From Gammaproteobacteria bacterium (lineage in GTDB: Bacteria > Pseudomonadota > Gammaproteobacteria > Steroidobacterales > GCA-2729495), in contig JAAERX010000027.1 of NCBI GenBank assembly GCA_024229935.1, positions 92,968 through 156,967 of the forward strand: DNA of 64,000 nucleotides, in the 5' to 3' direction. This document shows, in pieces, positions 10,495 through 41,064 of the stretch. The translations under genes and the position numbers were made by a program. The first letter of the stretch is position 1, and every line of letters starts with the position of its first letter. A model generated the notes under the pieces. That model was not told where the DNA came from. It worked only from the letters and a program-made list of their open reading frames with translations, and ran no database searches.

Positions 10495-12768
10495 CTAATT
10501 TTTTCTGTTGCCTTTAGCTTTATCGCCGCGACCCGCTACTCGATTAATATCTGAACCGTCCTCTCGCGGTGGCAAACCCGTATGCTGAGTCAGTATGTCG
10601 CCCTGCTTACGTCTCTGGTGCGGCTTAGCTGAATTCTTGCGGCGTGGAGCGCGGTAATTCTTCTTACCCTCATCCGGGCTATAAGCGGGAATAAGCTGTT
10701 TCTCACCATTACCAATTAAATCTGCCCGCCCCATACGTTTTAATGTCTCCCGCAATAAAGGCCAGTTATGTGGGTCGTGATAGCGTAAAAATGCCTTATG
10801 CAGCTTTCGCTGTTCAGGGTCTTTAACCGTTTCAACATCTTCAGTTTTATAACTGACTTTATGTAGCGAGTTTTTCCCTGAGTGGTACATAGCAGTTGCT
10901 GTTGCCATTGGAGATGGATAAAACGCCTGCACTTGGTCAGCACGAAAATCATTCCGTTTTAGCCACAGCGCCAGGCTCAGCATATCTTTATCAGTCGTGC
11001 CAGGATGAGCAGCAATAAAATAAGGGATTAGATACTGCTCCTTACCAGCTTCTTTCGAGAACTTTTCAAACAACTCTTTAAAACGTTCATAGTTGCCTAT
11101 ACCAGGCTTAAGCATTTTTGATAAAGGACCCTGCTCTGTATGTTCTGGGGCAATCTTGAGATAACCACCCACATGATGGGTAACCAATTCCTTCACATAC
11201 TCAGGGTCTTCCACTGCCAGGTCATAACGTACGCCTGAACTAATAAGAACCTTTTTAATGCCCGGTAAATTTCGGGCCTCACGATATATTTCTGTAAGAG
11301 CTGAATGATCTGTATTCAGATTACTGCAAACCTTCGGATAGACACAGCTGGGCCGCCGACAGGCAGCCTCAATTGAACGGCCTTTACAGGCAATACGATA
11401 CATATTGGCTGTTGGGCCACCTAGATCAGAAATCACCCCTGTAAAGCCGGGAATTTTGTCACGGATATCTTCAACTTCTGCCAGAATTGATTCTTTGGAA
11501 CGATTCTGAATAATCCGACCTTCATGTTCAGTAATGGAACAGAAAGTACAACCACCAAAACAGCCACGCATGATGTTGATAGAGAAACGTATCATTTCAT
11601 ATGCAGGAATTTTCTGGTCACCATAGGAGGGGTGAGGCACACGCTGAAAAGGCATGCCATATACGTAATCCATTTCCTCCGTATTTAACGGAATTGGCGG
11701 CGGGTTTAACCAGACATCCACATCACCATGCCGTTGCACCAAAGCACGAGCATTGCCTGGGTTGGTCTCAAGGTGCAACACCCGGTTAGCATGCGAGTAC
11801 AGCACCTTGTCATTCCGCACCTTTTCAAAAGAAGGTAAACGCACAACTGTTTTTGTACGATTCAGCTTTGGCTGTGATTCAGGTTGCAGACTTTGACCTT
11901 TCTCAGCATCCCTTTGCTCTGTTTGCACACCAGCAAGTGCGGCATCTCGACGCTGGCGTTCTTCTGTACTCATTTCTCGAGTATTCAGATACGGGTTTAC
12001 CACCCGCTCTACTCTGCCTGGCCTGTCTACGCGGGTAGAATCAACCTCCATCCAGTTCTTTGGGGTATCTTCCCTGATGAAAGCTGTACCACGAACATCT
12101 GTAATGCGTTCTGCAGGTTCCCCACGAGCAATACGATGTGCAATATCAACAATTGCTCGCTCAGCATTGCCATAGACCAGCATATCAGCGGTTGAATCCA
12201 CCAATGCAGAACGACGCACACCATCCTGCCAGTAATCGTAATGTGCAATCCGCCGTAAGGATGCTTCTATTCCACCCAGTACAACCGGCACATCAGGAAA
12301 TGCCTCTTTACAACGCTGCGCATAGACAAGCAAACACCGATCTGGCCGCAGTCCACCCACTCCTCCAGGCGAGTAGGCATCATCAGAACGTACTTTTCGA
12401 TCAGCCGTATACCGATTGATCATTGAATCCATATTGCCTGCAGCAACAGCAAAAAAAAGATTTGGCTGGCCAAGTGCTGCAAATGCATCTTTGGAGTGCC
12501 AGTCCGGCTGCGCGATCATACCCACCCGGAAACCCTGGTTTTCCAGCAGGCGGCCTATAAGGGCCATGCCAAAGGATGGGTGATCAACGTAGGCATCACC
12601 CGTTACAATGATGATGTCACAGGAATCCCAACCCAATTCATCCATTTCCACACGACTGGTTGGCAGGAAATCAGCAGTCCCATAGCACTCTGCCCAGTAC
12701 TTTGGGTACTGGTAGAGTTCTGTACGTGGCTTGGGTATAACTGCTGCGGACATGGTAGTTTTGGGCAT
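10495..12768 (-). CDS. ygiQ: YgiQ-family radical SAM protein (UPF0313)
   Basis: A 757-residue radical SAM enzyme of the YgiQ family. The [4Fe-4S] motif is [10 protein letters not shown] (CxxxCxxC). An N-terminal cobalamin-binding-like region ([30 protein letters not shown]) precedes it. Further family blocks are [30 protein letters not shown] and QAFYPSP, followed by a basic, low-complexity tail. The reaction of YgiQ is not established. It lies between two LLM genes but shows no clear functional tie to them. Confidence 0.93.
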
Positions 12769-12815
12769 TGGTAACGGCCGCCTATTCTAACCGGATAACC
12801 ATGCCACTATCAGAT

Positions 12816-13823
12816 TCAAAGCTCAGGTAGCACTCGTTCACCAATCAAGCGAATTGCAGCCACAGGGTCATCATGTACACGCAAGCCGATTTCAGTAAGG
12901 CCCGCAGCAGCAAATTCACGCAATGAAGCTATAGCCTGATCAATGGCATCAAGGCCACCAACATAGGAAATATTACTGATCATTTTATGAACTAACTCAT
13001 CAGGTACATTCTTTATCTGATCACTACCCTGCTTCCAGGCCTCAAGAAAATCATCAAAATGATCAAGCATGAACTGCAATTCATCCTCTTCCAGAAAGGG
13101 CTCAAAATATTGCTTGCCGAGGTAACCACGCAAGATGAGTTCACGCCGTGCTTCTGCCCATGAAGCATCAACATCCTCTTTAATATGCCAGGCCCAGAAA
13201 TTACTAATCCGGAAACTATCGCGAGGTCGGTTAGCTGCATCCAGCTCCATATGAATTTCCTCAATACGCTGGCGCATCAGTGGAATACAAAAATCACTGG
13301 TCATTAATCCATCAGCCATCTTAGTCGCAAGTCGCATTGTTTGTGGGTGGTTTGAAGCAATGTAAATCTGTGGCTTTTCCTGTGTTACCCACTTCAATTT
13401 GTAACCCCAAGTGGTATAGAACTCACCGTTATAATTCAGATCTTCATCTGCAGACACCTGAGTCATTATTTCCAGACACTCACGTAAATGCCCAACCATA
13501 CGGTCACTCTTTTTGCCCATGTGTTGTATGACGCCACCACCACCGCCTACACAAATCATGGCGCGCCCGTTACTGAGTTCATTCAGTGAATGCAGTGCAT
13601 TGGTCATCTTAAGGGGGTGCAATTCGTAGGGGCTCACTGCCAGAGGGCCAAGCCTGATATTACTGGTGCGGTCTGCTGCCAGGGACAGCGACATGAAAGG
13701 GTCCCAGCCATCACCATAACTGCTGGACCAGACACCCCGCAAGCCATAGCTTTCTGCCAGTTTGCTCAATTCCGCCGCCTCTGCAGGGCTGGCGAATTCA
13801 TTCAAAATAATGTCAATTTCCAT
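12816..13823 (-). CDS. LLM-class flavin-dependent oxidoreductase (paralogue)
   Basis: A 335-residue luciferase-like monooxygenase family protein starting MEIDIILNEF, paralogous to the 9391 product along its whole length. Shared blocks include GVWSSSYGDGWDPF, LGPLAVSPYELHPLKMTNAL, SNGRAMICVGGGGG and FWAWHIKEDVDASW. It is followed by, and on the same strand as, genes for an FMN reductase-like protein and a MAPEG protein, which could supply reduced flavin. The substrate is unknown. Confidence 0.83.
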   Translation of the reverse strand: MEIDIILNEFASPAEAAELSKLAESYGLRGVWSSSYGDGWDPFMSLSLAADRTSNIRLGPLAVSPYELHPLKMTNALHSLNELSNGRAMICVGGGGGVIQHMGKKSDRMVGHLRECLEIMTQVSADEDLNYNGEFYTTWGYKLKWVTQEKPQIYIASNHPQTMRLATKMADGLMTSDFCIPLMRQRIEEIHMELDAANRPRDSFRISNFWAWHIKEDVDASWAEARRELILRGYLGKQYFEPFLEEDELQFMLDHFDDFLEAWKQGSDQIKNVPDELVHKMISNISYVGGLDAIDQAIASLREFAAAGLTEIGLRVHDDPVAAIRLIGERVLPEL

Positions 13824-13875
13824 AAGGACTCATACCTGCACTGATGATGATCAAGTTATACGCTCATACATATCT

Positions 13876-14670
13876 TTACCGAAATAGATTTTGATTGCCT
13901 TTACGGGTGGATTTGCGCATCTTTCCCGCTATGTAGCCTGCCATCACCCGGGCAAAAATATTAATTGGCACTTTATTGTAGTACTCAGCATCAAACCAGC
14001 CACGGTCTTCCCAAAATTTGTGGTTGATTGAATTCTTCTGTCTATATGCCATATTCTGCATCGCACGGAAATTTATCAGATGCCTGAATTTAGGTGAACC
14101 CAATTTACCCTCATTAATTTCTGACACAAAGGTATCGGCCACCTCTTCTGCAACAACATCAACCCGTTTTAAATAGGATTCCTTTAGCATCTGGGAACTG
14201 GAAATACCCATGCGACTCACCACATCACAACCCCATGCATTGGCAGTCTGTTCAAGAAAATCCATAACGACCGTATGGCCACCACCGGAAGCAATTGAAG
14301 TAACAACCGCTTTCTTGCCAAAGAAGGTTGGCCGGTTGCGTTTGTACATGAAGTACTCAAAAAAATTCTTCATCAGGCCAGTGACATTAAAGGTATGCAC
14401 AGGAGAACCCAGAATAATGCCATCCGCTTTATTTATTTTGTCTGCAATTGGCCCAACTTTGGCATAGTCCGGACACGCACTTTCACCAACATTAACGCAC
14501 TTCAGACAACCATCACAAAACGGAAGATGTAATTTTTGTACAAAGATGTATTCGAACTCTACCGGCTGTATAGCCTGCATTTTCTCTTCAAGAATCCTGA
14601 TGCTCTTATAGGTCCAGCTCTCCTCATTACGAGGAGAGCCAACCAGCACCAGTATATTCAGCGGCTGCAC
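13876..14670 (-). CDS. NAD(P)H-dependent FMN reductase / flavodoxin-like protein
   Basis: A 264-residue flavodoxin-fold protein of the NADPH-dependent FMN reductase family. It has the phosphate-binding loop LVGSPRNEESWTYKS and the GSPVHTFNVTGLMKNFFEYF block typical of iron-sulfur flavoproteins and related reductases. A CDGCLKC motif followed by a further Cys (ESACPDY) resembles the iron-sulfur flavoprotein cluster site, so an Fe-S cluster is possible. It starts 10 bp after the MAPEG gene ends and lies just upstream of an LLM gene on the same strand, consistent with a flavin supply role. Confidence 0.8.
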   Translation of the reverse strand: MQPLNILVLVGSPRNEESWTYKSIRILEEKMQAIQPVEFEYIFVQKLHLPFCDGCLKCVNVGESACPDYAKVGPIADKINKADGIILGSPVHTFNVTGLMKNFFEYFMYKRNRPTFFGKKAVVTSIASGGGHTVVMDFLEQTANAWGCDVVSRMGISSSQMLKESYLKRVDVVAEEVADTFVSEINEGKLGSPKFRHLINFRAMQNMAYRQKNSINHKFWEDRGWFDAEYYNKVPINIFARVMAGYIAGKMRKSTRKGNQNLFR

Positions 14671-17232: not shown

Positions 17233-17724
17233 TCAGTCAGATAAGCCTATTATGGTTCTTTCAACACCATGCACGAGCACAAGCACAATAAGCAACCAGG
17301 CCATCATGCCATGCATATCCATAAACACAGCATGCAGGCGCTCATTGGCATCAGCAAGTGCTGAAATATTAATAAAACCAAATGCACGGACCTCATAATC
17401 AATAAATGCGGCATTCAATATGCCTATAACAGCCTGTATCAGTACCAGCGGGTAGAAAACCCATTGCAAAATCATAGACGGTCTTTTCCACCACCCCGGC
17501 GGTACATAGAGTTTATGCGCTCTGCGCCACCACCAACGGTACAACATCAGGACAATTATTAAGATGCCTATCCCTGAGTGAATCATGAGATATATCAGCT
17601 TTATATTCAATTCAAACCCTCCGAATCTCCATCCGGACAGCAAATTAAAGGCTATAAAAAATCCTGCAACCCAGTGCAATACTCTGGCAACGGTGTAATT
17701 AAATTTTGTATTTGATCCAGACAT
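17233..17724 (-). CDS. Cytochrome b561-like membrane protein
   Basis: A 163-residue four-helix membrane protein. Histidines at the helix positions expected for di-heme b561 binding are visible in HWVAGFF, HSGIGIL, HGMMAWLL and HGVERT. Such proteins pass electrons between quinone and periplasmic partners. It precedes the unknown membrane gene at 16723 and lies about 900 bp downstream of the NOD-like gene on the same strand, separated by a hypothetical gene. Confidence 0.75.
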   Translation of the reverse strand: MSGSNTKFNYTVARVLHWVAGFFIAFNLLSGWRFGGFELNIKLIYLMIHSGIGILIIVLMLYRWWWRRAHKLYVPPGWWKRPSMILQWVFYPLVLIQAVIGILNAAFIDYEVRAFGFINISALADANERLHAVFMDMHGMMAWLLIVLVLVHGVERTIIGLSD

Positions 17725-18630: not shown

Positions 18631-21000
18631 TTAACCTCCCAGAGAAGGGTCTTTCTGATGCTGCCAGTCATTCTCATAGACAGTCCATTCACCCTCTTCA
18701 ACCTCTTCTTCCTTACGACGAAGCTTGGTGCCTCGAGAAAGGATGAACCACATCATAGGTAGCAAGCCACCCCAGATGAATACGGCGCCACCGATGATAC
18801 GGCAGGATGTCAAGAATGCGAACACCGGACCCTCTACAATTTCTGCAGAACGGGCATACCAGGTACCTTCTGTGTAAGCGATCCAAGTCTGATACAACCC
18901 AACTGGGAACAGATCAAGGAACATCATCAGTATCAAACCAATATTCAAAGACCAGAATGATGTGCGAACCAGTTTTGGATTCCAGGCAGATTTATGGAAT
19001 AAATGCTGACAGCAGAACAGCATTCCGCCCAGCGCGATATTACCTTTCACACCAAACATAGCTGCATGAGCGTGGTTACCCGTTAGATAAGTTGCATGCT
19101 CATAGTAGTTAACGATAGGCAGGTTAACTACCGAGCCAAGTACACCAGCTCCAAAAATATTCCAGAAGTTAACGCCCAGGATAAACAACCAGACACCTTC
19201 CATAACAATAGTCTGTTTACCTTCAACCACTTTCTGGTTAGCCAGTGCACCTTCCTGACGCATTTGCCATGCATCAAGAGTAAGCAGGAGTAATGGCAAT
19301 ACCTGAAGAGTTGAGAACACACTACCAAGGGCAATGATGCCTGTAGGTTTAGCTATCCAGTAGAAGTTATGAGAGATACCAATCGTTGCAGTAATCAGGA
19401 AGAGCATCACAGCAAGGAAGATAACTCGTTCTGCCATCATCCGGGTGATAAGACCCATCTGAACCAGCATGTAGCCGACGATGACGGTTGTGAATACCTC
19501 AAAGGTAACCTCAACCCACATATGTACGACCATCCAACGCCAGTAATCAGAGATAGCAAAGTTCATTTCTGGTTGAACTAAAAGACCAAAGAACAGGAAC
19601 ATAACCATGATGCCACTGCCATAAAGCAGCCATGATGGAACAGACCAGATATTTCTTCGAGTCAGCCAAGGCTTAACAGCACGGTAGATAATAAAGATCC
19701 AGAGGGCAAATGCAGCCAACAGGGTGAACTGGAAGAAACGACCCAGCTCCATGAATTCCCAACCCTGACTACCGAACCAATATGCCATGTTGTCGCTAAG
19801 CATACCGGTGATACCCATGTAGATACCTACGATCGCACCAACACCGGTAACGAGACACAGGACAAACAACAGGTTAATCAGTGTCTTTTGACCGGCAGGA
19901 ACCTTCGAAATCCTTGGCAGGAAGAAGATGGTATAGCCAACCCAGCACATAAAGAACCAGAAAATCTGAAGGAGAGTATGGTAACTACGAACAACCTGGA
20001 AAGGAATAAGTTCATTCAGATTTATTCCAAACGGACGAACAAAGTCCATCGCGCCAATAACACCACCCAGAATCTGAACACCAAATACTAGAACCGCCAA
20101 AACGAAGAACTTATAAGTAGCTCTCTGAGTAGGCCGAACATATTCGTTCTCAAGGTCATAGGTGGTAAGTGACTGCCCACCTTCTGCCTCACTAGAATCG
20201 AATACATCAACTTCCTGCTCTTTCATCTGACCGTATGCATACAGAACAACCATCACGCCTACAAAAAGAGCAAAGATTGAAAACACACTCCAGAAGAATG
20301 TTGCTGCAGTAGGGCTGTTGCCAGCGTCCTTATCACCAGGCCAGTTATGCGTATAACTGTATGTTTCACCCGGTCGATTTGCTCCAGAAACCCAACCACC
20401 CCAGTAGAAAAAAGCTGATAAAGCACGAAGGTCAGCAGGATCAGAAATAAACCCTGTTGGCTCAAATGATTCAGCATAAGTAGGGTCATTAAACATCCGT
20501 GTGTAATGGTCTGTCAGGTCAGCATAGGCTGAAACCTGAGCATCATTAAGACGAATAACACCCGCTTCTTCATCATATCCGTTGTTATGAATTTCACGTA
20601 TTACACGAACCGCAATTGCATCATGATCATGTTGGGACAGCTCTCCAGCTGAACGCCCAAGCTCACGAGCATAATGTGCACGCATGCCCAATACAGTTCT
20701 ATGCAAAGCATCAGCCGTAAAATCGGGCCCACGCTCTCCGCCATCACCCCAGAAGGAGCCATAATTCATCAAACCACGGATATGGAATAGTTCCTGTCCA
20801 CGTTTGATTTCTGCTCTTGAAAACACAGTTTCCCCTGTGGGGGATACATAAGTTTCCAACGGAGGAGAACCCATATAGGTTGCACCACCGAGATAAATCA
20901 ACCCAGCGATACATATCGCAGAGACGATCATAAAGTGCGTTAGCCAGTTTTTCTTATTAACCAGCCATAACGCCATGTTCTGGGGACTAGAGTCACTCAT
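18631..21000 (-). CDS. nod: Putative nitric oxide dismutase (NOD), qNOR family
   Basis: A 789-residue heme-copper-oxidase-superfamily protein with qNOR architecture: an N-terminal periplasmic cytochrome-like domain lacking CxxCH (YGSFWGDGGERGPDFTAD near 80-96) and a 12-14 helix core. Core residues keep H493, E497 and H544 but have N545 instead of the third FeB His (GISHNFYW), and Q566 instead of the Glu in the SALEPLP motif (STLQVLP). All map to the known Geobacillus qNOR residues (H508, E512, H559, H560, E581) with one constant offset of 15. The quinol site His and Glu (qNOR H-Y-G-V-E) are replaced around A317-V321, and the Asp of the late R-x-P-G-D region is Gly738. These changes are those reported for NODs of Methylomirabilis and strain HdN1 (2 NO to N2 + O2). 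AAGGAG precedes the ATG. The alternative is a divergent qNOR, but loss of a metal ligand argues against it. Confidence 0.85.
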   Translation of the reverse strand: MSDSSPQNMALWLVNKKNWLTHFMIVSAICIAGLIYLGGATYMGSPPLETYVSPTGETVFSRAEIKRGQELFHIRGLMNYGSFWGDGGERGPDFTADALHRTVLGMRAHYARELGRSAGELSQHDHDAIAVRVIREIHNNGYDEEAGVIRLNDAQVSAYADLTDHYTRMFNDPTYAESFEPTGFISDPADLRALSAFFYWGGWVSGANRPGETYSYTHNWPGDKDAGNSPTAATFFWSVFSIFALFVGVMVVLYAYGQMKEQEVDVFDSSEAEGGQSLTTYDLENEYVRPTQRATYKFFVLAVLVFGVQILGGVIGAMDFVRPFGINLNELIPFQVVRSYHTLLQIFWFFMCWVGYTIFFLPRISKVPAGQKTLINLLFVLCLVTGVGAIVGIYMGITGMLSDNMAYWFGSQGWEFMELGRFFQFTLLAAFALWIFIIYRAVKPWLTRRNIWSVPSWLLYGSGIMVMFLFFGLLVQPEMNFAISDYWRWMVVHMWVEVTFEVFTTVIVGYMLVQMGLITRMMAERVIFLAVMLFLITATIGISHNFYWIAKPTGIIALGSVFSTLQVLPLLLLTLDAWQMRQEGALANQKVVEGKQTIVMEGVWLFILGVNFWNIFGAGVLGSVVNLPIVNYYEHATYLTGNHAHAAMFGVKGNIALGGMLFCCQHLFHKSAWNPKLVRTSFWSLNIGLILMMFLDLFPVGLYQTWIAYTEGTWYARSAEIVEGPVFAFLTSCRIIGGAVFIWGGLLPMMWFILSRGTKLRRKEEEVEEGEWTVYENDWQHQKDPSLGG

Positions 21001-21606: not shown

Positions 21607-22494
21607 ATGGCGACTAACCCCTTTTCATGGTTTACCTCTCTCTTTACAAAGGCTAAAGCTGATGGCCCATATGAGGTATTTCATAAAAACGGTCAACTAA
21701 AATGTCAGGGTACTTATAAAGACGGTCATAAAGATGGCCCTCACGAGTCATACTCCAAAAAAGGCCATTTAGAATCCAAAGGCAACTATAAGGACAACAA
21801 AAAAGAGGGCTTATGGGAAAGTTATTCTGCAACAGGTGACGTATTGTTCTCAGGCAGCTATATATCTGGACAACCTGATGGTACCCACAACCGATTCCAT
21901 AATAATGGCCAGTTACGAGACAAGCAGTCCTATATAAACGGCAAAAATGAAGGACTCTGGGAACTCTTTTATGCAAATGGCCAATTAAAATCCAGGGGTG
22001 ACTATAAAAACGGTAAACGAGAAGGTTCCTTTGAGATTTACTACAACAATGGTCAGCTAAGATCTAAAGGTAGTCATCATAATGATAAACGAGATGCTCT
22101 TTATGAGTCATACTTTGAAAATGGTCAGCTAGAATCTACAGGTAGCTACAAGGACGGCAATAAAGATGGGCCATGGAAAGAATTTTATGAATATGGTCAG
22201 TTAAAATTTTCAGGGTCCTATATAGATGGGAAACAAGATGGTTTTTGGGAAATCTTACATGAGAACGGTCAGCTGAAATCTGCTGGAAGCTATAGGAATG
22301 ATAAGCAGGAAGGTCCCTTTGAGGAATTCTCTGAGAGCGGTCAATTATTGGTTAAAGAGCATTATGAAAACGGTCAGAAGCATGGACCATATGAGTCTTA
22401 TGAAGACAATGGTCAATTGAAGTCCAGAGGAAGCTTTAAGTACGGCAGACTCGATGGGTCATTTGAACTATATAAAGATGGAGTCCTTCAATAG
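21607..22494 (+). CDS. MORN-repeat protein (12 units)
   Basis: A 295-residue protein made almost entirely of twelve 24-residue repeats with the core NGQLKSxGSYKDGKxDGPWE, the MORN_2-type beta-hairpin repeat. No signal peptide is visible, although residues 1-18 are moderately hydrophobic. Such proteins are often toxin-antitoxin-associated or cell-envelope partners, and their function is not known. A second MORN gene starts 47 bp downstream. The pair is divergent from the NOD-like gene. Confidence 0.8.
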   Translation: MATNPFSWFTSLFTKAKADGPYEVFHKNGQLKCQGTYKDGHKDGPHESYSKKGHLESKGNYKDNKKEGLWESYSATGDVLFSGSYISGQPDGTHNRFHNNGQLRDKQSYINGKNEGLWELFYANGQLKSRGDYKNGKREGSFEIYYNNGQLRSKGSHHNDKRDALYESYFENGQLESTGSYKDGNKDGPWKEFYEYGQLKFSGSYIDGKQDGFWEILHENGQLKSAGSYRNDKQEGPFEEFSESGQLLVKEHYENGQKHGPYESYEDNGQLKSRGSFKYGRLDGSFELYKDGVLQ

Positions 22495-26110: not shown

Positions 26111-28599
<2,489 letters not shown>

Positions 28600-30144: not shown

Positions 30145-30861
30145 TTATCTCTTTGCAGACTCTTCGCTTACAACCTTATCCTTTACAACAGCTGTTGAGT
30201 CCGGCTCCTTCCATTTTACTTCTTCATGAACGAGGTTGTAATGGCACTGGATACAGGTCTTTTCTGTGGCCTGATGCCGCTTGATCTTATTAAACCACTT
30301 GCTCTCAGTCTTATGACAAACCTTGCATTTGGCACTGTTATCTTCAAGCATTTGACCACGTACTTTATGTGCAAGTACCGGACGCAATTCTTCCCATTCC
30401 GGAATGTCACGCAGACCACTGGAGATCACATGGAAAGGGCTCTCACCAAATGTGCCTTTATTAATATAAAAGAACTTCCAGACCAGAAACTCCTTGACAC
30501 TGTGAGGGTTGTGACAGCCTAAACACCCGGCTTTAATCCCCTGCTCATTATCATAATGAGCAGATTCTCGGTACTCCTCATAGGGGTAGGCATGACACTC
30601 AGCACAACCTACCGTCATATTAAAGTGCCCCAAATCAATTTCTCTATTGGGCCTGAAGTCTTCTATGGATTCACTTAATGGGCTAGTCTGTTTGTACTCT
30701 TCATACTCAACAAATACCTCATGACAGGTAGTACAGACATTTGCCCGGGTAAAGCGAGTATGGCTCCAGCTCAGAATACCAATGGCGAGAAGCAGACCAA
30801 ATACCACAACAATGGTTATAACTCGCCCTATTGTTGATTGAAGGAACTTTGGAAATTTCAA
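30145..30861 (-). CDS. Pentaheme cytochrome c of the NapC/NirT family
   Basis: A 238-residue membrane-anchored quinol-oxidising cytochrome. One N-terminal helix (about residues 12-31) is followed by a periplasmic multiheme domain with five CxxCH sites: C43, C86, C113, C179 and C203. Classic NapC/NirT proteins have four, so one extra heme site is present. The family passes electrons from quinol to periplasmic reductases, which could be the adjacent molybdoenzyme or NirS. It starts 40 bp after the molybdoenzyme gene on the same strand. Confidence 0.88.
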   Translation of the reverse strand: MKFPKFLQSTIGRVITIVVVFGLLLAIGILSWSHTRFTRANVCTTCHEVFVEYEEYKQTSPLSESIEDFRPNREIDLGHFNMTVGCAECHAYPYEEYRESAHYDNEQGIKAGCLGCHNPHSVKEFLVWKFFYINKGTFGESPFHVISSGLRDIPEWEELRPVLAHKVRGQMLEDNSAKCKVCHKTESKWFNKIKRHQATEKTCIQCHYNLVHEEVKWKEPDSTAVVKDKVVSEESAKR

Positions 30862-30901
30862 TCTACTATTCCTCCACTATACTGCGGCTTGTTATCCATG
30901 C

Positions 30902-33259
30902 TTATCCCTGTGAATCCTTATAAACAGCAAAGTGCTTGGTATTATCAACTTCAATATCACCATACTTATCGCCTGGTTCAGCTCTGGAAAGCGTTACCAC
31001 TGAGTCATTCCATATCTGCGCACCCGTTTCCGGGTCTATAGCTACCGGCATAATGTCATTAGGGTTAACTCCGTTATCCCGCCACCAGAGGTTATGCTCA
31101 ATATCCGGGTCCTCTTGCTCATGACGGGCATAAGAAGGCGCGTGTGCATGTGGATTAGCCTGAGCCACACGACCATAAGCAGTACGTCCCACTGAAGTAC
31201 TCATGCCGAGTGTCTGGGGATGAATGCCTGAGGTCAGCCATGCCTTGGTAACCATATAACCAGCTGCGGTGGTCACTCGCACCAGATCGGCATCACCAAT
31301 TTCAAGCCTTAATGCCGTCTCCCTGTTAACCCAAAGTGGATTGGCATGCCACAGTTCCGACAGATATTTTAGATTTGAGGTCATAGAAAGAGAGTGATTC
31401 GCAACCTTGAAAGTGGTCAGCACAAACTGATTAGATTGAAGGTCTGCATGTTTTGGATTTTCACTCCAGGCAGGCTTACGTAGTTCAATTTTTCCTGATG
31501 GAGTGGGAAAACCAGCTGAGCGATAGGTATTGTATTCGGCCTCAGCTAATACACCCTTTTTAACAATCTGTCGTGTTGCAGGATCTATTTTTCCATACGA
31601 TGGCCATACGCCCTTAGATTTTAATTTCTTATAGGTTTTCTTCTCCGTTCCTGATGTCGCCTTAACTACCTGCTTGGTCCATTCTTCGACATCAGCAAAT
31701 TCCCAGTAAGATCGCATGCCACGACTGCCATCAGGGTCGATGGTCTCAATCACCTGCTTTAGCGTCATCCGCACATCCTGGGCCTGTCCCCGCGGTGAAA
31801 CTTTTGGGTAGCTCATGCCAATCCATGGCCAAAGTGCCGTTGGGCTACTGGCTACTTCATGACGCTCTACATCAACTACATCCGGAAGGATAATATCAGC
31901 CAGCTCTGCTGTCTCACTCATAAATGGACTAAAATCAACAAGATAAGGAATCATCTCTTCATCCTGTAAAACCTCCCGCCAGACGCTTGCCGCCGGAGAT
32001 GAGTAACCAGGATTACTCATATGATTGATGAGTAAGGCAACCTGACGGGAGCCATCCATTACTTCAAAGGGAAACGTCGGGTTCAACTGCTTTGACTGAC
32101 TACCTGCCAACTTTGGTATTGGCTCAGGTGCAGCAACATCAAACTGGCGTGGCAGACAATAACCACCCTCGTTATCAATATTACCTGTAATAACCGCAAG
32201 GGTCAGACAGGCCATCTCCGCATTAATTCCATTTTGATGCCAGCTAAGACCATTTTGACTCATCACCGTTGCCGGTTTTGTCTTGGCAAATTCAACAGCT
32301 ATCTTCTTAATAGTTTTGACTGGCACCCCACTGGCTTTCTCAGCTATTTCTGGGGTAAATTTTTCTAACTCTGCAGCCAGCTTCTTACTTGAATAGTTAG
32401 TCCAGGTATTAATAAATTTCTCATCCATTAATCCCTTCTGCATGATGATATTGGCCATCGCCAATGCAACGATGCCATCACTGCCTGGAAATACAGGAAT
32501 CCATTCATCACTTCTACCAGCGGTATTGGACATGCGAACATCGAATGTCACCAGCTTCAAGCGACTATTAACAACACCATCAGTCAACCTCTGTGCCAAA
32601 GGCGGAGCAGTTTCCATGATGTTGGCACCAAAATTCAGAATATATTTAGTATGTTCAAGGTCGGGGAGCATACTTGTAAAACCAACAGCCTCTTCAAGTG
32701 CGATCTGTTTTGGCGCTGTGCCTATAGAAGGCAGCCGACTACGAATAACTGACTGGGAGCCTATAGTATCCATGAACCGGACACTCCCCCCCTCCTTGAA
32801 ACCACCCTCGTTGAGGACAATGCTATTAGGGTCATCTAATGCTTCCAACACCTTGGCTGAAAGTTCTGCTATAGCTTCTTCCCAACTGATTTCCTGCCAT
32901 TGTCCGGCACCTCGCTCACCTACACGTTTTAGAGGAGCCAGTATCCTGTCCGGGTCAGAGGCGCCAAAGAAAGAGGCAAGACCCTTGCTGCAAAATTTAC
33001 CGCGGGTGGCAATATGGTCCGGGTTACCCTCGGCCTTCTTTATGACTCCATCTTCTGCATAGGTAAACCCCCCATCAAACCATGGGCACATGGTACACAG
33101 ATAGGGTTTCTTTTCCCGGGGATGAAAAGTTCGTATCTGGTGGAAATCCTTTCCGCCAAGTTCGAGCTCCATTGCATTAACAACAGCAGGACAAGCTGCA
33201 GTGGCAGTCGCAGCTGCAGCACCAAGCTTTACAAAATTACGTCTATCGATATCTGACAT
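30902..33259 (-). CDS. Tat-exported molybdopterin oxidoreductase, catalytic subunit
   Basis: A 785-residue Mo-bisPGD enzyme of the DMSO reductase family. A Tat signal (DRRNFVKLGAAAAT) is followed by a cluster-binding region whose pattern is C55-x2-C58-x3-D62-x27-C90. The third position is Asp where PsrA-like enzymes have Cys. At the position expected for the Mo ligand I read RLPSIG (Ser178) rather than the Cys of polysulfide or tetrathionate reductases, but this is an eye alignment. The domain order is otherwise normal (YILNFGANIMET, PVFPGSDGIVALAM, YLVDFSPFMSETAELADIILPDV). It is operonic with a four-cluster Fe-S protein and an NrfD anchor. The substrate (nitrate, sulfur or another oxyanion) is not determinable. 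Confidence 0.85.
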   Translation of the reverse strand: MSDIDRRNFVKLGAAAATATAACPAVVNAMELELGGKDFHQIRTFHPREKKPYLCTMCPWFDGGFTYAEDGVIKKAEGNPDHIATRGKFCSKGLASFFGASDPDRILAPLKRVGERGAGQWQEISWEEAIAELSAKVLEALDDPNSIVLNEGGFKEGGSVRFMDTIGSQSVIRSRLPSIGTAPKQIALEEAVGFTSMLPDLEHTKYILNFGANIMETAPPLAQRLTDGVVNSRLKLVTFDVRMSNTAGRSDEWIPVFPGSDGIVALAMANIIMQKGLMDEKFINTWTNYSSKKLAAELEKFTPEIAEKASGVPVKTIKKIAVEFAKTKPATVMSQNGLSWHQNGINAEMACLTLAVITGNIDNEGGYCLPRQFDVAAPEPIPKLAGSQSKQLNPTFPFEVMDGSRQVALLINHMSNPGYSSPAASVWREVLQDEEMIPYLVDFSPFMSETAELADIILPDVVDVERHEVASSPTALWPWIGMSYPKVSPRGQAQDVRMTLKQVIETIDPDGSRGMRSYWEFADVEEWTKQVVKATSGTEKKTYKKLKSKGVWPSYGKIDPATRQIVKKGVLAEAEYNTYRSAGFPTPSGKIELRKPAWSENPKHADLQSNQFVLTTFKVANHSLSMTSNLKYLSELWHANPLWVNRETALRLEIGDADLVRVTTAAGYMVTKAWLTSGIHPQTLGMSTSVGRTAYGRVAQANPHAHAPSYARHEQEDPDIEHNLWWRDNGVNPNDIMPVAIDPETGAQIWNDSVVTLSRAEPGDKYGDIEVDNTKHFAVYKDSQG

Positions 33260-33272
33260 TATTTATATCTCC

Positions 33273-34178
33273 TCAATAGAACGTCTGTAGATACTGACCG
33301 CCAAGCACCCACCAGATCCTCATACCATAGACACCAATCGCCACACAGAAACAGGCAACTAATATCCCGGACTTGGTTTTCCTAAGGGGTGAAACAAGAA
33401 TGCCAAATGGAATAATCAGGCCGGTAACAATCTCCAGCCACAAGTAGGGGCCCTGAAATACAGTCATTAGCACATGATGCCCCATTACCTCAGCCTGGCT
33501 GCCGTAAAGGCCCTGCATAAATTCCAGAAACAGCAGAAATGCATCAAAGACCAGCCCAAACATCATGAACTGAGACATTTCTTCGATAAGCACCCACTCA
33601 ACCTTCTTTTCTGCAGGTACAAATTTATTTCGAATTGCCAGCACCCATACCAGCAGTGCAATACCAGATATAAATGCACCGGTAAGAAATAAAATAGGCG
33701 CAAGAGCAGTGTGATTCAGGATTCGTCCTGGATTCAACTCCATCACTACACCGGTATACCAATGAGTTGATAACGCCAGCACTATAGAAATGATGCCAAT
33801 AGTCCTGGCCCAGAATATATTGTTCTTCACCACAAAAAAGCTATAAACAATCATCGCTATTGGGTAGGTCATAATCAGAACAGAACCCCAGGACATGGGT
33901 CCGGTGGCATGCCAATAACTGGGCAACATCAGGTAAATAAAACGTAAGGGTTTACCTAAATCCCAGATCAGCAGTATAGGCACCAGCATAAGCATGCTAA
34001 TAGCTGTTACTGATGCCGTCAGAGCCAGCGGTTTATAACGTTTGATGCCAAAAACCCAGCCAAAACTTGAAATCACAAAAGAGCCGGCACTTGCTCCCAC
34101 AAGCCAGAAATAGACCGAAATGGTCGTCCCCCATGCAACATGGTGGAACACATTCGAAATAACTACACTCTCATTCAT
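33273..34178 (-). CDS. NrfD/PsrC-family membrane anchor of the molybdoenzyme
   Basis: A 301-residue membrane protein with about eight helices of the NrfD/PsrC family, which binds quinone and links it to an Fe-S subunit. Typical segments are FWLVGASAGSFVISSFGW, GKPLRFIYLMLPSYWHATGPMSWGS and EFMQGLYGSQAEV. Only 13 bp separate it from both the Fe-S gene upstream and the catalytic subunit downstream, so these three are one operon. Confidence 0.9.
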   Translation of the reverse strand: MNESVVISNVFHHVAWGTTISVYFWLVGASAGSFVISSFGWVFGIKRYKPLALTASVTAISMLMLVPILLIWDLGKPLRFIYLMLPSYWHATGPMSWGSVLIMTYPIAMIVYSFFVVKNNIFWARTIGIISIVLALSTHWYTGVVMELNPGRILNHTALAPILFLTGAFISGIALLVWVLAIRNKFVPAEKKVEWVLIEEMSQFMMFGLVFDAFLLFLEFMQGLYGSQAEVMGHHVLMTVFQGPYLWLEIVTGLIIPFGILVSPLRKTKSGILVACFCVAIGVYGMRIWWVLGGQYLQTFY

Positions 34179-34191
34179 TACCTGCTGTTCC

Positions 34192-35043
34192 TTACCTGAA
34201 GTAAAGATTTATATAAGCATCAATTACATCTTTTGCTTTATGTGGAATCGTGCGGCAGAAGCCCATAAAGTTCTTGCCAACCTGGGCCATCGTTGGCTGC
34301 CCCTCAACAAGGTCACCGAAAGCATCACCTTCATGGTTTTCCTTAAAAGTATTAAACTCATCCTTGAGCTGTTCTGTTCTGTTGGTATAGCTGTGTGACT
34401 CATCCATCATTTCCCAGTCACCACCTATATAGGATACTGATGGACTGGTACCCAACTCTGGCTTGAGTACTGTCAGATTTTCTTTAGCAGCCAGTTTCGA
34501 CACTTCACTTTCAGGGTCATTCATATCACCAAAAATACGTGCGCCACCTACGCAAGCCTGCACACAAGCAGGAACAACACCCTTCTTAACCCGATGTATA
34601 CAAAGGGTGCATTTATCAACCACCAGTTTGGGAAGCTTTTCATCAGTCCGTTTTGCAGGAATAAGATGCCTAGCGTTATAGGGACACGCGACCATACAGG
34701 TACGGCAACCAATACAACGGTTATAGCGCTGCAGGACAAAGCCATCCTTATGCTTGTAGGTAGCCTGGGTGGGGCAGTTACGGACACACACCGGATAGTC
34801 ACAGTGGTTACACATACGCGGCATAAAAGTCCGCTTGGTATTTGGATAGGTGCCCTTATCAGCTACTTTTACCCATGTTCGCCAGACACCCATAGGGATG
34901 CCAAACTCTGCTTTACAGGCCACCATACAGGACATGCATCCAATACATTTCCTAAGATCAATCACCATGCCATATCGTTTGACTCCAGCCACCCCCTTGG
35001 TGCCTGGAGTCTGCAGTCCATATGAACGAGGCTGATGAGACAT
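34192..35043 (-). CDS. Four-cluster 4Fe-4S subunit of the molybdoenzyme
   Basis: A 283-residue ferredoxin-like subunit with four cysteine groups: CIGCMSCMVACKAEF (from Cys33), CNHCDYPVCVRNCP, CIGCRTCMVACPYNAR and CTLCIHRVKKGVVPACVQAC. This is the electron wire of DmsB/NrfC/PsrB type between the membrane anchor and the Mo subunit. A C-terminal extension of unclear function follows. No Tat signal is visible, so it may be exported as a complex with the catalytic subunit. Confidence 0.9.
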   Translation of the reverse strand: MSHQPRSYGLQTPGTKGVAGVKRYGMVIDLRKCIGCMSCMVACKAEFGIPMGVWRTWVKVADKGTYPNTKRTFMPRMCNHCDYPVCVRNCPTQATYKHKDGFVLQRYNRCIGCRTCMVACPYNARHLIPAKRTDEKLPKLVVDKCTLCIHRVKKGVVPACVQACVGGARIFGDMNDPESEVSKLAAKENLTVLKPELGTSPSVSYIGGDWEMMDESHSYTNRTEQLKDEFNTFKENHEGDAFGDLVEGQPTMAQVGKNFMGFCRTIPHKAKDVIDAYINLYFR

Positions 35044-36001: not shown

Positions 36002-37591
36002 TTAGTAGATATCATGTGTTGTGTTGTAGACATTGAACTTGCCCGTTGGTGTATATAGACCTTTCACCCGACCTTTTACTTCCAGAGTTTTGTCATCCAG
36101 AATTACGACTTCACCCTCTTTATCCCAAAGAGATATCCACACCTCATTACCATCTTTGTTGAACTCCATGTGCACCACTTTCTTATCAAAAGTAAGTTCA
36201 CGTGGCGCTGCTTCAGGGTTTTCGATGTCAAACACAGTCAGGACATTAGACTTTTCCTGATTGATCGTGTTGTCACAATAGACATTAGTGCTCTTGGGGT
36301 GAGTCTTAATAAACAAAGAGTTACCACCAAGTTCCCATTCCCTGACAACTGTCCAGGCATAGTCTTTCTTAGGGTCAGTACTAATAATAGAAACCAACCC
36401 TTCACCAAGGTGAACGGTAGCCCAGACACGTCCATATTCTGGATCAACCCAGTTAGCACCACGACCAGGATGAGGCTTGGTGCCCGTTATGATATTTGCA
36501 ACCAGTTTACGGTCTACCGTATCAATAACAGAGATCGTATCCCGAGCATTTGCTGCCACCATGAAGTAGCGCTTGGTGGAATCCCAGCCACCATCATGAA
36601 GGAAACGTTCAGCATTGATCTTGGTCTCAACAACCGTATCTTCATCCATCTTGCTGTAATCAACCAGCAAAACTACACCCGTTTCCTTGAGAGTAAGGAT
36701 CCACTCAGGTGCGTGATGTGAAGCAACAATAGAAGCAACACGTGTCTCGTCACGGTACTCATTGGTATCATAGGTATAGCCACGGGTACCAATAATTTTC
36801 AGAGGCTTGAGTGTGTCACCTTCCAGGATCACATAGTGAGGAGGCCAGTAGTCACCAACAACGGCGTACTTATCTTCAAACCCTTTAAATTTACTAGTAT
36901 CAATAGACCGCGCATCGATTCCGGTTCTTACCTCAGCAACGATATCTGGTGGTGTAGCCCACATATCCATCATGGTGGCCTTACCGTCACGACCAATGGC
37001 GTACATATAACGGCCAGTAGCTGATGTCCGGAGGATATGAGTAGCAAAACCAGAGTTAATAATATTCACAGTCTCTTTGGTATCACCATCAATGATGGCA
37101 ATCTTGCCTGCATCCCTCAGAACCACACCAAAGTAGTTCTCCCAGTTCACGCCCTTAGGTGGCTTGGCAGGCCTGTCCGAAACAGGCACATAAACTTTCC
37201 AGGATTCTTTCATCTCCTTCATATTCCACTCAGGGGGCTCAGGCACATCATTCTGAACAAAGCGCGCCATGAGATTGGTTTCTTCAGGCGTCATAAACCC
37301 ATCTTTACCCCAACCCGGCATACCACCATCTGTGCCTTCATATAGAATCTTTTCTAATGCAGCCAGAGTCTTTTTTCTGGTATTCGCCGGTTCGATATTC
37401 TTACCTGTCGCACCCTTTCTCAACGCACCATGACAACCAGAACAACGGTCAAAATAAATATATTGAGCCGTTTTTAACTCATCTTCTGATATTTTAGGAA
37501 CAGGCTGTAAATCTGCTGCACCTGCAGCCCCCCCGAACGTTAGTAAAAGGCCGGATGCAATAGTTGCTGAAACAGCTGACCGTATGTTCAT
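36002..37591 (-). CDS. nirS: Cytochrome cd1 nitrite reductase, second copy
   Basis: A 529-residue periplasmic enzyme with a signal peptide (about 1-25), one cytochrome c domain (C50-x2-C53-H54) and a d1 beta-propeller. The propeller keeps the proximal heme-d1 His (GFATHIL), an active-site His pair region (ASHHAPEW, residues 292-293) and FLHDGGWD (H332). The C-terminus is [16 protein letters not shown]. It lacks the extra c domain of copy 1 and has ASHHAPEW where canonical NirS has SHEHPEF, so it is clearly diverged. It may be a NirS subtype with different kinetics or a heme-d1-related paralogue (NirN-like function), although its end is NirS-like. Confidence 0.85.
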   Translation of the reverse strand: MNIRSAVSATIASGLLLTFGGAAGAADLQPVPKISEDELKTAQYIYFDRCSGCHGALRKGATGKNIEPANTRKKTLAALEKILYEGTDGGMPGWGKDGFMTPEETNLMARFVQNDVPEPPEWNMKEMKESWKVYVPVSDRPAKPPKGVNWENYFGVVLRDAGKIAIIDGDTKETVNIINSGFATHILRTSATGRYMYAIGRDGKATMMDMWATPPDIVAEVRTGIDARSIDTSKFKGFEDKYAVVGDYWPPHYVILEGDTLKPLKIIGTRGYTYDTNEYRDETRVASIVASHHAPEWILTLKETGVVLLVDYSKMDEDTVVETKINAERFLHDGGWDSTKRYFMVAANARDTISVIDTVDRKLVANIITGTKPHPGRGANWVDPEYGRVWATVHLGEGLVSIISTDPKKDYAWTVVREWELGGNSLFIKTHPKSTNVYCDNTINQEKSNVLTVFDIENPEAAPRELTFDKKVVHMEFNKDGNEVWISLWDKEGEVVILDDKTLEVKGRVKGLYTPTGKFNVYNTTHDIY

Positions 37592-39019: not shown

Positions 39020-39625
39020 ATGGAAACTGTATGGTGGGCTAGTGAGGATCTATGGCGCAAGGTAGCCATCTGGATAACTGCCTTTATGACTGTCGTGCTG
39101 ATCGTTCTGACTTATGACTCGCTCCACGCAATCACTGCTGGTGGCGAATCAGGTCGGGTTAAGGCATATAGCGTTATTAATAACCGGGTTTATTACAAGT
39201 TTGATAAAGAAAGAAACCTTCCGGTACCCGTCATCGGTGACTCGGCACCCCTGTTTGGTAAAACCCTAACTGAAGACGAGGCCTATGCCCTTGTTACTAA
39301 GGGTAAAATCACAACTCACGCCAAAAACTGCATGGGCTGTCATACCTTCCTCGGTAACGGTGCCTACTATGCACCAGACCTGACGAAGTCCTGGCTGGAT
39401 CCAGCCTGGGGCAGCGAAGGCGTACGTGAAGAGCTGATGGTGACCTTTTTAAAGGACCCGGAAACAAATGCACGTGGTTTTGGCAGCGATCGCAAGATGC
39501 CTAATCTGAATATTACTGACGAAGAAGCGCACGCAATCGTGGCATACCTGAAATGGTTATCCACCATTGATACCAATGGCTTCCCACGTAATTTCACACC
39601 TATTTCGCAGGAGGGTGATCGATGA
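39020..39625 (+). CDS. norC: Nitric oxide reductase subunit C
   Basis: A 201-residue membrane-anchored mono-heme cytochrome c, with an N-terminal helix (WITAFMTVVLIVLTYDSL) and heme site CMGCHTFLGNGAYYAPDLT, which is the NorC signature. It passes electrons from periplasmic donors to NorB. Its last codons overlap norB by 4 bp (ATGA), so translation is coupled. Confidence 0.95.
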   Translation: METVWWASEDLWRKVAIWITAFMTVVLIVLTYDSLHAITAGGESGRVKAYSVINNRVYYKFDKERNLPVPVIGDSAPLFGKTLTEDEAYALVTKGKITTHAKNCMGCHTFLGNGAYYAPDLTKSWLDPAWGSEGVREELMVTFLKDPETNARGFGSDRKMPNLNITDEEAHAIVAYLKWLSTIDTNGFPRNFTPISQEGDR

Positions 39626-41064
39626 GCATCGGCACACTAAGTTTTTCACACTTGACCACCGGGCAACAACTGGCGATTAAGTATTACTCTGTGGCAGTCA
39701 TACTGTTCGCAGCACAGGTTCTGTTTGGGCTACTGGCAGGCTTGCAGTACCTGAGACCTGACTTTCTCTATGAAGTACTGGACTTCAGCGTTAACCGCAT
39801 GGTGCATGTCAATGCCATGGTGGTCTGGATGCTGTATGGCTTTATGGGCGCTATCTTCTGGCTGGTTGAAGAAGAAGCCGGGGTTGAACTCGTAGGTGCC
39901 AAGCTCGCTAACCTGGGCTTCTGGGTACTGACTGCTGCGGTTACCGTAGTGGTACTCGTCTATCTGTTTGTACAGATAGGGCCGGGCACTATGGAGTCAC
40001 TCTGGTTTATTAATGAAGGGCGTGAGTATATTGAGGCACCACGATGGGCTGATATCGGTATCGTCATCTGCCTGTTGATATTCTTCTATAACATTTCTGC
40101 CACTTTCATGAAGGGCAAGTGGAGCGGCATATCCGGCGTCCTGGTTTTGGATCTGGTTGCTGTTGCTGGCCTGTACCTTGCCGGCATGTTCTACATCACT
40201 AATACTTCAGTAGAGCAGTACTGGTGGTGGTGGGTCATCCACATGTGGGTAGAGGCAACCTGGGAAGTTCTGGTTGGCTGTATCATGGCATGGGGTCTTA
40301 TCAAGACTCTGGGCGCAAGCCGCAAGATCGTTACAACCTGGCTCTATATTGAAGTAGCGCTGATGCTTGGCTCCGGTATTCTGGGTCTGGGTCATCACTA
40401 CTTCTGGATTGGCACACCTGAATACTGGTTCACCGTTGGTGGGTTCTTCTCGGCACTGGAACCGGTACCGCTGGTAGCCATGGTAGTACACGCAGTCTAT
40501 GACTCGGGCGTGCATCGCTTTAAGAACTCCAATCACCCGGCTCTGGCATGGTTTATTGCACATGCATTCGGCAACTTTTTCGGTGCCGGCGTGTTTGGGT
40601 TCATGCACACGCTCCCACAGATCAATCTGTATACGCATGGCTCCCAGTGGAGTTCATCCCACGGTCACCTGGCATTCTTTGGCGCCTATGCCACCATAAA
40701 CATTGCGATGTTCTATATGGGAATTCAAAAGTGGCGGGGCGATGTCTATATGTCCGCTAACATAGCGCATAGCTGGAGATGGAAATGGGCTCTGTCACTC
40801 CTATGCCTGGGTATGACGGGCATGACTATAGCCTTGCTGATATCAGGCTATGAGCAATCCTTTATTGAACGTGCACTTGGCGGAGCTACCTGGGCTGCAT
40901 ATTTCGAAGCACAGCAAACCGCATGGTACGTACAAGGTATGGTCTGGCGTCAGATATGGGGCTATGTGTTTGCTTCCGGACTGGTTCTGCTGATCTGGGA
41001 TCTGCTTACCATTGGTAAAGGTGATACACGACCCATGTTATTACCCGAACCAGCTGAGCATTAA
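39622..41064 (+). CDS. norB: Nitric oxide reductase subunit B (cNOR, catalytic)
   Basis: A 480-residue heme-copper-type membrane enzyme that reduces 2 NO to N2O. FeB site residues are H207, E211, H258 and H259, with E280 in SALEPVP. These are the same numbers as in Pseudomonas cNOR. GHHYFWIG is intact, in contrast to GISHNFYW of the NOD-like protein at 18631. norQ and norD, usually needed for activation, do not follow. A hairpin terminator and a cytochrome c gene come next. Confidence 0.96.
   Translation: MSIGTLSFSHLTTGQQLAIKYYSVAVILFAAQVLFGLLAGLQYLRPDFLYEVLDFSVNRMVHVNAMVVWMLYGFMGAIFWLVEEEAGVELVGAKLANLGFWVLTAAVTVVVLVYLFVQIGPGTMESLWFINEGREYIEAPRWADIGIVICLLIFFYNISATFMKGKWSGISGVLVLDLVAVAGLYLAGMFYITNTSVEQYWWWWVIHMWVEATWEVLVGCIMAWGLIKTLGASRKIVTTWLYIEVALMLGSGILGLGHHYFWIGTPEYWFTVGGFFSALEPVPLVAMVVHAVYDSGVHRFKNSNHPALAWFIAHAFGNFFGAGVFGFMHTLPQINLYTHGSQWSSSHGHLAFFGAYATINIAMFYMGIQKWRGDVYMSANIAHSWRWKWALSLLCLGMTGMTIALLISGYEQSFIERALGGATWAAYFEAQQTAWYVQGMVWRQIWGYVFASGLVLLIWDLLTIGKGDTRPMLLPEPAEH

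Follow-up and report, generated by a model that had tools for sequence, protein, structure and literature searches.

The 64,000-nucleotide stretch of gammaproteobacterial DNA analysed here (the window) codes for a protein which, on its residues and its place in phylogenetic trees, is a conserved member of the NOD (nitric oxide dismutase) clade of qNOR-like proteins. In the clade that it shares with strain HdN1, the nod gene is accompanied by genes for a pair of MORN_2-repeat proteins and for a 7Fe ferredoxin of the FdxA type (Table 1), and the products of these genes are likely candidates for dedicated NOD partners, as judged from gene neighbourhoods. The nod-MORN_2-fdxA linkage in the HdN1/window clade appears to be new: no mention of MORN proteins or of a ferredoxin beside nod was found in the open-licence literature searched, and none of MORN, ferredoxin, b561 or antitoxin in the main text of PMC13386854.

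The window NOD is a new member of a known, still putative family, whose members are presumed to form nitrogen and oxygen from nitric oxide with no light required. Such proteins were proposed to be dismutases in 2012, with HdN1 among the proposed organisms (PMC3413370), while according to PMC13386854 the enzyme had not been isolated as of 2026 and opposing results exist. The same source detected nod in 66 MAGs out of 1,362 from lakes, with Pseudomonadota making up almost two thirds of the carriers, and describes other nod neighbours, and with HdN1 and many Pseudomonadota MAGs as known carriers, the occurrence of NOD in Pseudomonadota, or in a gammaproteobacterium, is not itself new.

Table 1. 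Position and strand of nod, its two diagnostic codons and the other genes of the window discussed in the text.
Feature	Positions	Strand	Basis or remark
nod, NOD-family protein with qNOR fold	18631..21000	-	789 aa, ATG start; PF22085 and PF00115
Asn545 codon (AAC); replaces the third FeB His (His560 of 3ayf)	19366..19368	-	
Gln566 codon (CAG); replaces the active-site Glu (Glu581 of 3ayf)	19303..19305	-	
MORN_2-repeat protein 1 (MORN1), 295 aa, divergent from nod	21607..22494	+	Pfam MORN_2, 141 bits
MORN_2-repeat protein 2 (MORN2), 203 aa	22542..23153	+	Pfam MORN_2, 98.7 bits
nod-linked 7Fe ferredoxin, FdxA paralogue, 107 aa	23592..23915	-	NCBIfam FdxA_Protbact, 146.5 bits
Gene immediately downstream of nod; product of unclassified family, called at 252 aa	17794..18552	-	Present in 8 of 19 clade loci
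Membrane protein of the cytochrome b561 family, also downstream of nod	17233..17724	-	PF01292, 43.7 bits; present in 6 of 19 clade loci
NirS (cytochrome cd1) with extra N-terminal cytochrome c domain	26111..28195	-	893 bits to 1bl9, residues 158-694
Second NirS (cytochrome cd1)	36002..37591	-	576 bits to 1bl9
NorC, cytochrome c subunit of canonical cNOR	39020..39625	+	CxxCH motif and position before norB
NorB of canonical cNOR	39622..41064	+	325 bits to 3o0r_B; ghhyf and alep motifs aligned

Active site, fold and selection

In regard to the catalytic site, the window NOD aligns with the qNOR of G. stearothermophilus (chain 3ayf) at 433 bits, and H493, E497 and H544 fall on H508, E512 and H559, while N545 pairs with H560 and Q566 with E581 (codons CAT AAC for H544 and N545, CAG for Q566). 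In the quinol region, H328, E332 and D746 of 3ayf are replaced by M318, R322 and G738. The first-pass annotation had read the three retained ligands, the two catalytic substitutions and the altered quinol-binding His, Glu and Asp from the sequence, and the alignment bears it out in all of these. The constant offset of 15 on which it had relied holds around the catalytic site but not in the quinol region, where the offsets are 10 (M318/H328, R322/E332) and 8 (G738/D746), and the loss pattern that it had ascribed to the NODs of NC10 bacteria and HdN1 is the one given by Ettwig et al. 2012 (PMC3413370).

Both substitutions are invariant in 121 of 121 sequences, namely the window protein and the 120 listed among 990 database homologues. 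They are likewise present in 87/87 aligned NODs and in 0/11 qNORs from the same order, all 11 of which have His and Glu at the two sites, and the FeB ligand and the active-site Glu are also retained in both readable cNORs. The aligned set consists of the window protein, four database proteins, two relatives and 80 loci from genome records, the best 80 of 228, with no record under the name Methylomirabilis among them; ten loci were dropped before alignment, nine as copies (L006-L011, L013, L015, L016) and L003 as the window's own cNOR, and the fragments L017, L018, L023 and L032 were left out. Further columns separate NODs from qNORs, K551, N631, H635 and N642 among them, each in 87/87 NODs.

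A sequencing error at the HN codon had been named in the first-pass annotation as something that could overturn its reading. An ordinary qNOR carrying such an error, or a local mutation, is ruled out for practical purposes by the occurrence of Asn and Gln in all 121 and all 87 sequences, and the placement in the NOD clade persists in trees built without the diagnostic columns.

The qNOR fold is predicted across 722 residues, and NOD resembles qNORs of solved structure (3ayf, 6qq5, 6fwf) in overall fold and in its N-terminal cytochrome c-like domain, this hydrophilic domain being without haem c in NOD. It differs from them in the third FeB His (N545), the active-site Glu (Q566) and the quinol residues (M318, R322, G738), and from cNORs in being a single 789-aa chain that carries the PF22085 domain, with no separate cytochrome c subunit.

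It is also possible, though improbable, that NOD is an NO-binding or NO-detoxifying protein, a sensor or a sink with little turnover. Regulators of the NsrR/Rrf2 type beside nod in other clades do point to NO stress, and PMC13386854 also notes regulators beside nod. Against such a role, His 341, 643 and 645, aligned with the haem ligands of qNOR, are invariant in 87/87 NODs together with H493, E497 and H544; dN/dS is 0.06-0.07 in three of five pairs (window against L035, L037 and L039, dS 1.4-2.1), synonymous sites being saturated in the remaining two, L036 and L040; and nod lies 5-20 kb from the genes for NirS and NorCB, which is a respiratory setting.

Phylogeny of NOD

The first-pass annotation had placed the protein with NODs rather than inside active qNORs, and two trees agree with this, separating NOD from qNOR at supports of 99-100. 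In the tree of 100 rows, built without columns 318-322, 545, 566 and 738 and without the fragment L025, there is one NOD clade (99) and one qNOR clade (100); within the former, a clade of 23 rows holds the window and HdN1 proteins (SH-aLRT 94) and another holds the Bacteroidota NODs (99). A slower mixture-model tree of 42 of the 101 aligned rows gives the same picture, with 100/100 for NOD against qNOR and 94/96 for the window/HdN1 clade.

The Bacteroidota NODs (Algoriphagus, Cecembia and others; L094-L104, L107-L114) share N545 and Q566 with the window protein in 19/19 rows, yet they differ from it in keeping the quinol-site His at position 318 and Tyr652 as in qNOR, again in 19/19 rows. Since these residues are kept together with the Asn and Gln, the FeB change probably preceded the full loss of the quinol site, and the Bacteroidota proteins, their FeB His already an Asn, could represent an evolutionary intermediate.

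Gene surroundings in these and other groups differ from those in the window. In Cyclobacteriaceae, the neighbours of nod are Rrf2-type and OsmC genes; among the Bacteroidota loci, L094-L098, L103, L104 and L110 have a Rrf2-type regulator just upstream of nod and an OsmC-family gene 0-24 bp downstream of it. Three loci of alphaproteobacterial MAGs (L043-L045) hold an NsrR-like regulator divergent from nod, and in L072, from a Myxococcota MAG, nod is directly followed by another NOD/qNOR-like stretch (12360-14123), which shares 39% identity with the window NOD over 591 aa.

Genes linked to nod in the window/HdN1 clade

Clustering of neighbouring genes first pointed to the MORN_2 proteins and the ferredoxin beside nod. 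With tblastn, at E 1e-6 and a query coverage of 40% or more, all three of MORN1, MORN2 and FdxA were found beside nod in 19/19 loci of the window/HdN1 clade and in 0/64 other nod loci, 54 of which extend at least 3.2 kb upstream of nod and 10 less; the 19 include copies or near-copies (L126 of L050, L125 of L051) and one locus, L128, in which the contig ends inside nod. Profile searches gave MORN_2 in 16/16 clade loci searched and in 0/64 others, and FdxA at 157-203 bits in the same 16/16, with weak matches of 23-32 bits in 5/64 others. Among the 23 window genes tested, each of the others occurs in at most 8/19 clade loci, except for nod and for NorB, the 24-27% matches of which at these loci are taken to be nod itself. 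Neighbourhoods of nine qNOR genes, two from the order and seven, including a near-copy, from the family, hold neither MORN_2 nor the nod-type ferredoxin (0/9), and an NsrR-like gene adjoins qNOR in seven of them. Since FdxA and MORN_2 are missing at the 64 nod loci of other clades, they are not needed for NOD generally.

In the four NOD genomes G000, G007, G014 and HdN1, all 17 MORN_2 repeat matches (E 1e-3) fall within the pair beside nod, and at the same threshold the repeats are absent from two NOD-free species of the genus, G001 and G004. Downstream of nod, the 252-aa protein has no match in Pfam or NCBIfam, and the cytochrome b561 has no solved relative by sequence at E 0.01; in HdN1, the b561 gene follows nod at a distance of 19 bp. 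The relatives L035, L036, L038, L039 and L042 have, on the nod strand and just upstream of nod, so placed that it separates nod from the MORN_2 pair, a small protein of 171-183 aa, labelled PAS by eye, the profile of which gave no match in the window.

Across 40 family genomes, NOD at a minimum of 62% identity is present in 17, that of the window included, and in none of the four other species of the window's genus. Sixteen of the 40 hold both nod and MORN_2, 21 neither, one nod only and two MORN_2 only (Fisher 3.8e-8, relatedness ignored). All three discordant genomes are cut at contig ends: in G017 the contig begins inside nod, in G072 the contig breaks off after about 73 residues of the nod start, and in G073 only 417 bases precede the MORN_2 match on its contig, on which no nod fragment was found. 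In 14 of the 16 genomes with both genes, the two are on one contig, and in G032 and G035 on different contigs. The genera g1, g4, g7 and g9 each include species with the two genes and species that lack both, although some of the genomes lacking them are incomplete, and because of this pattern nod and MORN_2 appear to have been gained or lost together. A counter-case is G022, with a further MORN_2 gene away from nod.

Properties of the ferredoxin and MORN_2 proteins

FdxA as such is widespread, being present in 39/40 family genomes, and the window's genome has a second copy elsewhere (contig C76). Six NOD-free genomes (G002, G004, G012, G016, G026, G028) also hold two copies, and a second FdxA alone is therefore not diagnostic. 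Among the 17 nod genomes, FdxA lies beside nod in 14; G032 and G035 have it next to MORN_2 on a contig other than that of nod, and the contig of G017 breaks off at this place. The 20 linked FdxA sequences, that of HdN1 included, form one clade (100/99) apart from 18 other FdxA of the family, in a tree that includes two identical rows and one linked copy (L184, from G032) that neighbours MORN_2 while nod is on a different contig, and that covers no other ferredoxin of HdN1. All eight cysteines are kept in the linked proteins, as far as the truncated L038 copy is readable.

For MORN1, the AF2 model (pLDDT 94) is a long beta-meander, predicted to be elongated, and the nearest solved structures are the MORN proteins 6t69 and 6t4r. 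At their N-termini, the MORN_2 proteins are for the most part basic and in part amphipathic, with amphipathicity above the shuffled mean in 15/17 proteins. Because at most 5% of shuffles reach the observed value in only 6/17, anchoring in the membrane is weakly suggested.

Genome context

The window belongs to a MAG of 2.71 Mb in 189 contigs, 99.5% complete. Both nirS genes lie within 17 kb of nod, and their products are the predicted source of NO; residues 21-137 of the NirS nearer to nod resemble the cytochrome c domain found on Cu-NIR chains, e.g. 3ziy. In the canonical cNOR, NorB has the FeB HH and the active-site Glu intact, while NorC has only a weak NCBIfam haem-binding match. As possible O2 sinks, the genome holds two CtaD-type (aa3) oxidases and 16 matches to the Rieske domain; open frames of 368-432 aa contain 11 of these matches, and from this size the proteins may be oxygenases. 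Neither P450 nor FA-desaturase/AlkB gave a match in the genome, and hydrocarbon use of the HdN1 type is therefore not evident.

NosZ likewise has no match in the window's genome in a search with TIGR04244 that scores the NosZ of HdN1, the positive control, at 968 bits; this model was used because the PF18764 probe matched 0/14 controls. In the same search, NosZ is above the cut-off in five of 12 genomes, all five of which carry NOD. In regard to nitrate reductase, five of six molybdopterin proteins were scanned (all but L115), and none of the five reaches the NCBIfam cut-off for NarG or NapA.

Between the nirS genes (30145-35043, minus strand), there are genes for a molybdopterin oxidoreductase (785 aa), an NrfD-like protein, an FeS protein and a NapC-like protein. 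The Mo, NrfD and NapC genes have relatives in L037 at 70-77%, and the Mo and NrfD-like proteins reach no NCBIfam cut-off. Two molybdoenzymes of the type II DMSO-reductase family are found on contigs C155 and C83 of G000 (L116, L117), below the TIGR03479 cut-off, the nearest solved relatives of L116 being 5e7o (519 bits) and 4ydd (518 bits).

A search for regulatory sites with the FNR-type box TTGATNNNNATCAA, allowing at most one mismatch, gave six sites in the window against 4.1 expected, none of them just upstream of nod. A looser scan for TTGA-N6-TCAA also found none within 450 bp upstream of the window nod; by raw count, at least one is present upstream of nod in 8/16 relatives.

Proposed mechanism and its main alternative

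The reading that we favour, with moderate confidence, is that NOD converts 2 NO into N2 + O2 at the haem b3/FeB site, likely helped by the ferredoxin and the two MORN_2 proteins. The two NirS enzymes would supply the NO that binds at the active site of NOD, and NOD would rearrange the N-O bonds rather than make N2O, since it has neither a quinol site nor haem c and thus no evident path by which two electrons could enter. The linked ferredoxin could bring the haem/FeB site into the ferrous form, as priming at entry into the cycle or as rescue after damage, while the MORN_2 proteins may serve as a scaffold at the membrane surface or as an assembly factor. Finally, the O2 released would feed the two aa3 oxidases and/or the Rieske oxygenases of the same cell. 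A more elaborate proposal is that NOD in the HdN1 lineage does not work alone but forms, with three other gene products, a module that yields O2 from NO; the MORN_2 proteins would be its scaffold at the membrane surface, a dedicated 7Fe ferredoxin would load electrons into the enzyme in place of the lost quinol site, and related species would gain and lose the four genes together. This is put forward tentatively, and we would sooner doubt it than rely on it.

Alternatively, the proteins of the NOD clade could reduce NO to N2O, drawing the electrons from another donor instead of quinol, e.g. the linked ferredoxin or b561. The linked ferredoxin keeps its cluster cysteines and sits more easily with an enzyme that consumes electrons; b561 is near nod in 6/19 clade loci, including HdN1; and nod-like genes in the ocean ODZ have been argued to be NO reductases (PMC5723336). 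The NosZ of the five NOD-carrying genomes also speaks for a reductase and counts against dismutation, as an N2-making enzyme does not need NosZ. The intact cNOR in the genome weighs on both sides, against dismutation and also against a further reductase, since a canonical one is already there. Nevertheless, the FeB ligand and the Glu, kept in all 11 qNORs and both cNORs, are changed in all 87 NODs, and FdxA is not beside nod in 64/83 loci, so that a reductase with another donor seems unlikely, though it is a more serious contender than a sensor or sink, and dismutation remains the preferred reading.

Comparison with known systems and significance

The closest counterpart is the putative NOD of HdN1 (FP929140, locus L070), which is 66% identical to the window NOD, has the same Asn/Gln pattern and is likewise found with two MORN_2 genes, FdxA of the same clade and b561 beside nod. 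HdN1 differs in having NosZ, for which the window's genome gave no match, in the orientation of FdxA, which is on the other strand relative to nod, and in that the 252-aa downstream gene of the window was not found there. The putative NODs of Methylomirabilis oxyfera (DAMO_2434, DAMO_2437) are alike as described in PMC3413370, with His-to-Asn and Glu-to-Gln changes and a lost quinol site, but pmoA-C are reported near nod in that organism (PMC13386854).

Missing partners for assembly or redox chemistry would be one possible reason why NOD, the single enzyme proposed to split NO into N2 + O2, has still not been isolated. In HdN1, a strain that has been grown in culture (PMC3413370), the two MORN_2 proteins and the nod-type ferredoxin offer specific candidates for such partners, and they make the choice between dismutase and reductase testable there; the linked ferredoxin also sharpens the case for an enzyme that takes up electrons. 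Dismutase or reductase, either outcome bears on the amounts of N2O or O2 that are attributed to these bacteria where waters and sediments are anoxic.
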